The notes under the pieces are model-generated. The model was not told where the DNA came from and did no database searches. It was given only the letters and a program-made list of their open reading frames with translations. DNA of 64,000 nt from Chryseobacterium artocarpi (GTDB lineage: Bacteria; Bacteroidota; Bacteroidia; Flavobacteriales; Weeksellaceae), in NCBI RefSeq assembly GCF_001684975.1, contig NZ_MAYH01000001.1:558001-622000 (forward strand), given 5' to 3'. Shown piece after piece: positions 24,001 to 26,188 of this stretch (positions within the stretch are counted from its first letter, which is position 1; each line of letters opens with the position of its first letter). The translations under genes and the position numbers were made by a program.

Positions 24001-24238
24001 ATCTCTTTTTTAGATTTTCAGATCAATTTAAAAATATTTTTAATGGTTTAAAATACGTCGAGTTCTGTCGTTGTGCTGAAGTAGCTTTGTACAAGAGATA
24101 AGGGTGATGATTGTTGAAAAAAACTTTCTCACGTTTAGAAAAAAATTACATTAAATCAGATATGATTTTTGTGAATTAAAAAAATAAAAAAATCCCTTTC
24201 AAAAATAAACTAAGGGACTACATTTAAACCAAAGCAAT

Positions 24239-26188
24239 ATGAAAAATCAATTTTTAATTAAGGACACAATGAATGCTATGTATAACATGTGTCCATGTGA
24301 CTTACATGATTTACAAACTGGAGTTTATGCGGGAGTAAAGTTATTAGGATATTACCGCAAAGGAGATACACCAGCTCCGATTGTTTATTATGTATCTCCA
24401 ATGGAAACCAGACCGGATGATGGAGGAAGTATCATTCATGTTGGTACAATAAAGTTGGTACACACTTTTACGAACTCTATAGATGTGAAATATTACGGTG
24501 CTTTCCCTGATTTGGATGCTAACGATACAACAGTTAGAATTAATAAAGCGATTAAAGGGTCTTGTCCCAAGATCTTTATTGGTGATGGTGATTATAGAAT
24601 TGTTGGTGATGATCCTAGTACCTCAGTAACAGATTTTTTACGTGATGCCGGAGGAATTGAGATGCAGGATAATAAAATGTTGGTTATGTCTGATAATTGT
24701 TATTTAATTCAAAGACCTACAAATAAGCAACAATATAACGTCATTCGTGCGTATAATAAAAAGAATGTTTCTATAACAGGTGGTAATATCACAGGAGATA
24801 GAGATACTCATACAGGAGTCGGTGGTGAATGGGGGTATGGAATAGCTGTTTCCGGAGGAAGTAACATCTCTTTAAAGAACATTAAAATTAAGGACTGCTG
24901 GGGTGATGGATTAAATATTCAGCATTATTATGATGAAAAAAACGTACTCCATTTATTAAATGGTTTGACCGCAGACAAAATTATTTCATCCAATAACAGA
25001 AGACAGGGGATGTCTATTGAAGCTGGAGAAAACCTTTATTTTACAAATTGTGCATTTAATAATAGTAATGGAACTGCACCTGAATGCGGAGTAGATATAG
25101 AACCTTTGGATTCTGGATCTATCGTGAGAAATGTTTTATTCGATAATTGTGAATTTCTAAATAACAACCATGCCGGATTACTGGCAGGAGGTAGTGCAAA
25201 TGTGTCACATGTAACGATCCAAAATTCAAGAGCGTATGGTAATAAAATTCCATCAGAAAGTGGGGGACAGATCAGTTCATATAGGGAAAATAATGATATT
25301 ATTATTAAAAATTCATTTCTTGAAGGTAGCGCAGAAAGCTTATATGGAGTCTCACTCTTTAACTCTCCCAATTCACAAATAATAGGTAATACTTTCAAAA
25401 ACTGTATGTTCAATAACCAAGGAGTGATAGGGTCGGAAAACCTTGTTATTCGTGGCAACAATGTCCGTTTCTTTAAAGATTTTCAAGGAGCTGGAGATAT
25501 TTACTATTATAATTCAGACAGGTTGCCTGATAATAATATTAACCAGGAAATATCCTATAATACGATACTTAATGAAAATACAGGAATCAAGCTCCTTTTA
25601 TTCTTTAATGTGACAAAGAGTATTATTCAAAATAATCTGATTTCCAACTACACACTTATTGATTTGAAAGGAAAACATAATGTTTTTGAATCTAATAAGC
25701 TGTATGATGCAAAATATCATTCTCTGAATATTAAAGAAGATTCAGATCATTCAGTAATCAGTGGAAATATTGTGAGCGGAGGTCTTGCAGAGGATCAGGG
25801 AAGTTCTTTTATTGCTGTTGGGAAGTCAGATAATTTAGTGATTACAGATAACATTATCTCCAAAAAATCTTATTATACAGGAGCTGTTAGTCCATACACG
25901 AATGCTTTTTTTATCAATTCAGCTATTGAGAATATGATCTTTAAAGGGAATGTTCCATTAGACCTGTTAAACTTTCATGCTAGTGGAACTCCATCTGACA
26001 GTCAGAATATCGTTGTTTTAAATAAAGCAACTAATGAGTACAGTGGAGCGGTCAAAAGCTCAGAAGCATCGGGAGATACAGCAGTAGATGTAGGTGATAA
26101 CTATTCTAAGACCGAAGTTCAGGCAATTTTAGCTGAACTCCGAGATTTGAAATCTAAACTTAGAACAGCAAAAATATTAACGACATAA
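24239..26188 (+). CDS. Parallel beta-helix (pectate-lyase-like), tail-spike-like protein
   Basis: The 649-residue protein has no signal peptide. Residues 1-85 form a compact N-terminal domain ending VHTFTNSIDVKYYGAFPD, the transition seen before phage tail-spike helices. Residues 90-590 show repeated Asn/Ile/Gly turns (ISGNIVSGG, LVIRGNNVRF, IQNNLIS) typical of right-handed beta-helices. The C-terminus (about 615-645) is heptad-like, VQAILAELRDLKSKLRTA, and could trimerise. It could be a glycan depolymerase or orphan tail spike. No phage genes flank it. It has its own leader hairpin (TCCCTT/AAGGGA, 24193-24217) and a terminator. Confidence 0.7.
   Translation: MKNQFLIKDTMNAMYNMCPCDLHDLQTGVYAGVKLLGYYRKGDTPAPIVYYVSPMETRPDDGGSIIHVGTIKLVHTFTNSIDVKYYGAFPDLDANDTTVRINKAIKGSCPKIFIGDGDYRIVGDDPSTSVTDFLRDAGGIEMQDNKMLVMSDNCYLIQRPTNKQQYNVIRAYNKKNVSITGGNITGDRDTHTGVGGEWGYGIAVSGGSNISLKNIKIKDCWGDGLNIQHYYDEKNVLHLLNGLTADKIISSNNRRQGMSIEAGENLYFTNCAFNNSNGTAPECGVDIEPLDSGSIVRNVLFDNCEFLNNNHAGLLAGGSANVSHVTIQNSRAYGNKIPSESGGQISSYRENNDIIIKNSFLEGSAESLYGVSLFNSPNSQIIGNTFKNCMFNNQGVIGSENLVIRGNNVRFFKDFQGAGDIYYYNSDRLPDNNINQEISYNTILNENTGIKLLLFFNVTKSIIQNNLISNYTLIDLKGKHNVFESNKLYDAKYHSLNIKEDSDHSVISGNIVSGGLAEDQGSSFIAVGKSDNLVITDNIISKKSYYTGAVSPYTNAFFINSAIENMIFKGNVPLDLLNFHASGTPSDSQNIVVLNKATNEYSGAVKSSEASGDTAVDVGDNYSKTEVQAILAELRDLKSKLRTAKILTT

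Follow-up and report, generated by a model that had tools for sequence, protein, structure and literature searches.

A predicted headless tailspike in a Chryseobacterium chromosome and its putative mosaic family

Why a bacterium should encode a protein with the build of a phage tail spike, at a place where no phage gene adjoins it, is the question raised by one gene of Chryseobacterium artocarpi, a close relative of Chryseobacterium ureilyticum. The gene occupies positions 24239-26188 (+) of a 64,000-nucleotide stretch of DNA, here called the window, and its ATG-initiated product of 649 amino acids, the window protein, has no recognisable signal peptide. A preliminary description had proposed a tail-spike-like beta-helix protein with a head-like N-terminal domain and with neither phage nor secretion genes beside it, perhaps a domesticated spike for an injection machine encoded elsewhere. 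The tail-spike-like ORF itself is confirmed by a Pfam match, an AlphaFold helix and orthologues, and a scan of ten neighbours likewise revealed no phage or secretion gene.

The ORF is not a chance one, because a full-length orthologue with 96% identity is found in C. ureilyticum and another with 80% protein identity in Chryseobacterium sp. c4a (G015), and because the window gene and the c4a orthologue differ by a dN of 0.117 and a dS of 0.791. With a dN/dS of about 0.15, taken from this one pair only, the gene is under purifying selection. The DNA of C. ureilyticum DSM 18017 is 95% identical to the window over 22 kb that include the spike gene, while c4a has the same genes upstream of its orthologue and different genes downstream. 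Upstream of the window gene lie genes for SusC, SusD, a glucoamylase-like protein, an esterase, a GH3 protein and a 129-amino-acid protein without a match, and downstream of it genes for adenylosuccinate lyase, a WG-repeat protein, a beta-lactamase-type serine hydrolase and FGAM synthase. The context formed by these ten neighbours is metabolic and Sus-type, not that of a phage tail module.

The gene is preceded by a small 5'-UTR hairpin (TCCCTT/AAGGGA, positions 24193-24217, +), 21 nucleotides before the start codon. Its z-score is -3.1 in the window, -3.1 in L107 and a weak -1.6 in L108; the hairpins of both orthologues have altered stem bases and still fold, weakly in L108. At two loci from two species (L107:12426-17539 and L098:11658-16378) a protein of 539/540 amino acids, 86% identical between them, is encoded downstream of the beta-helix spike gene, as is a related repeat-type protein of about 1,030-1,160 amino acids.

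The right-handed beta-helix is the best defined part of the protein and is borne out by three lines of evidence. Pfam Beta_helix (PF13229) matches at 1.4e-17, AlphaFold models a helix, and the modelled helix has close structural matches. The confidently modelled portion covers residues 80-330 (24476-25228, +), where the 10-residue mean pLDDT is 68-98; it continues at moderate confidence to residue 390 (62-80 at residues 331-390), with further low-confidence coils to about residue 570. The mean over the whole protein, from a 15-sequence alignment, is 63.8, and the model is poor at residues 1-74 and in most of 394-620. A sub-threshold match to Pfam DUF4957 and matches to two PHROGs families of unknown function were also found, and an NCBIfam search led nowhere. 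The best PDB match by sequence is phi-crAss001 gp22 (E 7.6e-23, residues 134-476), and tblastn gave matches in 365 phage records, none of which covers 80% of the window protein. Using VIA-align, the helix matches 8ja4 with Z 35.2 over 355 residues at 3.4 A, followed by AlgE4 and AlgE6 (Z about 34.5), phi29 gp12 (33.5), the adhesin PfbA (30.9) and many tailspikes (27-30). On these models the helix has the fold of glycan enzymes, which alone cannot distinguish phage proteins from secreted enzymes, and which would also fit epimerases, lyases, hydrolases and an adhesin.

Within the helix, residues 196-289 (24824-25105, +) carry the signature GEWG...CWGDG...NRRQG...DIEP, a candidate active site. 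In general form the four blocks read GEWG, WGDG, NRR.G (or NVRRNG) and G(I/V)D(I/L)EP, and a set of 15 sequences, which includes three orthologues, conserves E197, D223, R255, D286 and E288 at 90% or more. Bacterial carriers of the signature are the window protein, its orthologues, other Chryseobacterium proteins and three Sphingobacterium members; it is also found in the viral contigs L135, L136 and L153. Because it occurs in four exported proteins of 350-379 amino acids as well, phage descent does not follow from the helix by itself.

A more specific link to tailspikes comes from the N-terminus. Residues 1-106 (24239-24556, +; domain B) form a module common to the family and to phage, prophage and eCIS-locus proteins. 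Residues 1-108, folded alone from 30 relatives (pLDDT 78), were compared with known structures by re-aligning 266 chains. Every one of the 19 PDB entries that reach Z 3.8 is a tailspike-type protein or a depolymerase, with some proteins appearing twice, and the next rows drop to Z 2.4. The best match is 8iqe_A (Z 8.6, 79 residues, 3.6 A), followed by 7xyc (7.3), 7w1d (6.6) and WceF, 6tgf (5.0); Foldseek E-values are weak, 6.5e-3 at best. A viral structure library was also searched, and since it contains viral proteins only, the order of its matches does not discriminate between a phage and a bacterial origin. The matches align at the segment directly before the helix of the solved spikes, that is, at their neck. 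The head-like domain of the preliminary description is thereby not borne out: comparison of the first 85 residues with head-binding domains was proposed there, and that assignment is rejected because the structural matches lie on necks.

No residue precedes the neck in the window protein. This missing anchor is not decisive, because L092, a protein encoded at an eCIS locus, also starts directly at the neck and because several phage spikes of known structure (8iqe, 7w1d, 7xyc, 6eu4) have their aligned neck starting at residues 6-16 of the chain. A long anchor is not universal, and short or docked spikes exist. Long N-terminal regions do precede the neck in three other proteins. The first is a 1200-amino-acid protein (PHROGs tail fibre, 4.4e-20) of the integrase-bearing viral contig L182, in which the neck, 51% identical over about 70 residues, follows about 295 residues into the chain. 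The second is a 1459-amino-acid protein of the Chryseobacterium phage MA9V-3 (PV245944, annotated as hypothetical), which contains the neck twice and gives 3e-12 against the neck model (9.6e-7 for its best copy taken singly, both in a pool of 634 ORFs). The third is L095 (G024); judged by eye, the genes around it look like those of CIS and phages, with a phage-type lysozyme among them.

The genome of the window bacterium has a second neck gene, L049:8727-10676 (G000:C51), with an extra N-terminal module, domain A, in common with the MA9V-3 protein. Another link to that phage is an orphan neck gene, L096:8095-9990 (G095), whose product is 54% identical to the MA9V-3 protein over 600 amino acids; L096 adjoins purM/N/H/D and guaA, by eye. 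The window protein itself stands further off, with only a distant relation between its body and MA9V-3 or L182 and with two weak matches of its neck alone to phage records (E 0.03 and 0.7). Taken together, the neck in a prophage fibre, a phage protein and an eCIS-locus protein and the identity between L096 and MA9V-3 lend support to the earlier idea of a domesticated spike.

The protein ends in a cap, C1, at residues 608-649 (26060-26185, +), with a predicted helix at residues 624-643 of moderate confidence (mean pLDDT 56-73). The cap is also found in Sphingobacterium paralogues, and in the 27 Chryseobacterium members the only caps are those of the window protein and its two orthologues, all of them C1. 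A first C1 model had the window cap among its seeds; repeated with eight Sphingobacterium-only seeds, it recovers the window cap at 2.7e-18 (cap-model E-values refer to a pool of 1359 ORFs). A second cap, C2, is carried by L092 (G051:C22; L092:13259-15268) and by Sphingobacterium orphan arrays, which suggests exchange between injection systems and orphans. Of 67 members of at least 450 amino acids, 14 have C1, 13 have C2 and 40 have neither. Against phages the window cap has no match and the C1 cap gives a head fibre as its best hit (E 0.04); C2, which the window protein does not carry, gives 1e-4 against a head-fibre protein from a phage, over 30 residues.

The proteins with this neck form one family across Chryseobacterium and Sphingobacterium, with swapped middles and two recurrent C-caps. 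The neck model finds 35 of 148 genomes of the genus at E<=1e-3 (21 at E<=1e-20), 7 of 395 in the order at E<=1e-4 (six in the genus and one weak), and 13 of 301 in the family of the Sphingobacterium G511 at E<=1e-10. A scan of a genome-contig collection yielded 28 neck loci, 3 from Chryseobacterium and 25 from Sphingobacterium. In the viral contig collection an A2 query returned 61 stretches without a relative and a single-protein query returned no stretch, and a search of the plasmid collection led nowhere; such scans of collections first filter by short patterns, which makes an absence weak evidence. The stretches retrieved reduced to loci as 91 to 28 for the scan above, 68 to 27 for another, and 12 to 1 for the scan that gave L182. 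ORFs were called mechanically, with starts that can be too early (as in L040-L042), and identical proteins were collapsed.

Copy number varies widely among carriers. At E<=1e-4 the neck matches in ten carrier genomes number 2, 15, 8, 8, 4, 2, 10, 8, 2 and 1, counts that include broken copies, so that the maximum is 15 full or broken. Tandem arrays of four copies each are present in L115 and L119 and of three, one being a fragment, in L123, and L113 has four copies with one on the other strand; tandem and broken copies were observed in L115, L119, L113, L123, L122 and other Sphingobacterium loci. Among 34 Sphingobacterium members, 10 of the 14 pairs with necks more than 85% identical have middles below 30%, and some pairs have the reverse pattern (L131 and L115: neck 68%, middle 94%, cap 93%). 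Necks, bodies and caps therefore recombine.

Most Sphingobacterium copies aligned are also preceded by a near-identical promoter-leader of about 88 nucleotides. Sites above 25 bits number 69 in 45 loci, which partly overlap so that some sites are counted twice; 49 of them stand immediately upstream of a neck start that is in register, and the remaining 20 precede neck starts that were judged by eye to be shifted or broken. No other gene of the 45 loci was seen to follow the leader. It is absent from the Chryseobacterium orthologues, which have the small 5' hairpin instead.

We consider it probable that the window protein is a headless tailspike owned by the bacterium, a predicted polysaccharide-cleaving (or polysaccharide-binding) enzyme made of neck, helix and C-cap and without a separate particle anchor. 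Such a protein would fold into a trimer in the cytoplasm, with the C-cap holding the chains together. In some of the cells it would get outside, by lysis or by another route, and would there degrade a particular capsule or exopolysaccharide, so that swapping the body would change the sugar target. We infer the glycan activity, the trimerisation and the export, and the extracellular role is a conjecture. For the family as a whole we put forward, more tentatively and with less assurance than for the protein, that host-owned cassettes could diversify soluble tailspikes without a phage or an injection machine. The promoter-leader, the neck and the two C-caps would capture and express new bodies in tandem arrays and so might give each strain its own polysaccharide-targeting set.

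The same material can be read differently, with the orphan genes as spare spike bodies, remnants or a reservoir for recombination by phages and eCIS, of little direct use to the cell. Broken and truncated copies beside intact ones fit this reading, as do a neck common to prophage, phage and eCIS-locus proteins, a C2 cap common to L092 and the orphans, the kinship of L096 to a lytic-phage protein and the patchy distribution over the 301 genomes. We nevertheless think it unlikely, because the window gene is under purifying selection, the Sphingobacterium copies retain their near-identical promoter-leader, and, of 20 loci fetched, 12 have one type, of 665-716 amino acids, at one and the same place in the chromosome.

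A headless tailspike acting on its own must also be weighed against a role in an injection machine, with the window protein as the receptor-binding spike of the bacterium's own eCIS (or T6SS), encoded away from the cluster. The genome search proposed in the preliminary description did find such machines. The genome has a T6SSiii TssC and, on the same contig about 93 kb from the window gene and outside the window (L102:942-17554 and L103; G000:C1 about 450942-489148), an eCIS with a sheath C-terminal domain, tube gp19, hub, PAAR, gp25 and AAA. The slot that L092 fills in G051 is taken here by three 'REELKTYFETGKYPT'-type proteins of 283-297 amino acids, in which no beta-helix is seen by eye and of which one, scanned with Pfam, gave no match. 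The locus also encodes a 1363-amino-acid protein with a weak nuclease match. C. ureilyticum has the spike gene together with sheath genes, and the start at the neck that L092 and the window protein have in common makes an eCIS role in the window's own genome more possible.

The distribution of the machines argues the other way. The sheath model PF04984 matches 56 of the 148 genomes of the genus, only 28 of these over the cut-off; it detects these sheaths weakly, so some may be missed. With that limit, the sheath is found in 4 of 21 neck genomes and in 52 of 127 others (Fisher p 0.09), a direction against association, and c4a retains its 80% orthologue without a sheath match. Among ten traced carriers the sheath matches in one, C. 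ureilyticum, and TssC in three, including G512 and G517 with 8 copies each; G511 (15 copies), G516 (10) and G513 (8) match neither. In the genus, by comparison, TssC is found in 145 of 148 genomes with PF17541 and in none of the 148 with the other TssC model, PF05943. Because c4a has no sheath match and the two copy-richest genomes have neither marker, the role of injection-machine spike does not explain the family in general, and the family appears, within the limits of the models used, not to depend on eCIS or T6SS. The earlier suggestion of a spike for a machine encoded elsewhere is thus unsupported as a general answer, and for the window's own genome we regard it, on balance, as improbable.

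How a headless tailspike would leave the cell bears on the two remaining alternatives. The absence of a signal peptide claimed at the outset agrees with simple tests, consisting of an 11-residue Kyte-Doolittle window and a Tat pattern in place of a dedicated predictor. At its N-terminus the window protein peaks at a hydrophobicity of 0.35; two cytosolic enzymes give -0.26 and 1.0, and four neighbours judged by eye to be exported give 1.93-3.36. Upstream of the ATG the reading frame stays open for only 10 codons. In the 54 members that start at the neck the median is 0.72 and no Tat-like motif occurs; their maximum, 1.97, belongs to L050, the only member to overlap the 15 exported core relatives (1.80-3.23). 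By these tests Sec, Tat or lipoprotein export is rejected, L050 falling inside the control range.

Export by a type I (C39-peptidase ABC) transporter was suggested by the neighbourhood, since in nine Sphingobacterium genomes 6 of 22 C39-peptidase ABC genes have a neck gene no more than 15 kb away where 0.47 would be expected, a Poisson estimate that treats genes as independent and an excess that shared genomic islands could explain. Such transporters were observed near spike genes in L113, L111, L123/L165, L125 and L176. The spacing of the N-terminus does resemble that of a double-glycine leader. Such a leader is rejected, however, by alignments of 15 and 30 rows in which position -2 is never glycine, position -1 varies and an insertion of two residues occurs at that point in some copies. 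Moreover, L125 and L165 carry, next to the transporter, a peptide gene with its own double-glycine leader (by eye), which points to peptide natural-product islands, and the three C39 genes of the window's own genome lie on other contigs than both neck genes. We therefore hold this route to be very unlikely.

Least credible of all is a secreted enzyme of the ordinary pectate-lyase-like kind whose signal went unrecognised. Many core relatives in the genus, 350-403 amino acids long, do have an exported-looking N-terminus (such an ORF is present in 15 of the 27 loci L005-L031), but they match only about residues 96-350 of the window protein and have neither neck nor cap at a significant score (best neck E 0.038 among 15 proteins), and the window protein has no hydrophobic N-terminus, no Tat motif and only those 10 open codons upstream; the Sec or type IX signal of such an enzyme, named in the preliminary description as the finding that would speak against it, was not found by the simple tests.

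A headless tailspike owned by the cell therefore stays the reading we favour. If the proteins are active, the family would supply Bacteroidota-specific glycan depolymerases and serve as a natural experiment on spike function freed from the particle, and the exit route of a folded spike from the cell becomes a directly testable question.

Among known systems, the window protein shares its helix fold with AlgE-type mannuronan epimerases and with the alginate epimerase/lyase 8ja4 (Z about 35), at 14-17% identity. These are secreted enzymes that are not known to carry such a neck or cap. The combination of neck and right-handed beta-helix is that of phage tailspike depolymerases such as Klebsiella K2-2 TSP (8iqe) and Fri1 gp49 (6c72), from which the window protein differs in being encoded outside any phage tail module and, it appears, in lacking a separate particle anchor. 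The MA9V-3 protein and the L182 tail fibre have the same neck but long N-terminal regions ahead of it, whereas L092 (G051) and L095 (G024) have it in proteins encoded inside an injection-system or CIS-like locus. The core signature is shared with phi-crAss001 gp22 (7qoj), described in its structure report as a trimeric tail fibre protein whose residues 1-26 lie in a docking hub (PMC10172136).

Tailspike-like enzymes owned by bacteria are already known as single cases, and the closest of them is WceF of Pantoea stewartii (6tgf). According to the published account, WceF is a chromosomal bacterial protein with a tailspike neck (residues 166-229) and a trimeric beta-helix, preceded by a Tat signal and a P22-like head domain (PMC7949094). 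Our neck model aligns to WceF residues 167-265, its neck and helix entry. Against WceF as so described, the window protein has neither Tat signal nor P22-like head; it ends in a C1 cap, and its family is mosaic and multi-copy. In the open-access literature searched, no paper was found that describes, for Sphingobacterium and Chryseobacterium, a multi-copy family of recombining spikes without heads and signals. The window protein thus has a spike-like build; we assign it neither to the phage tailspikes, since it has no tail module, nor to the WceF type, as it has no Tat signal and no head, nor, going by its context, to the eCIS fibres.
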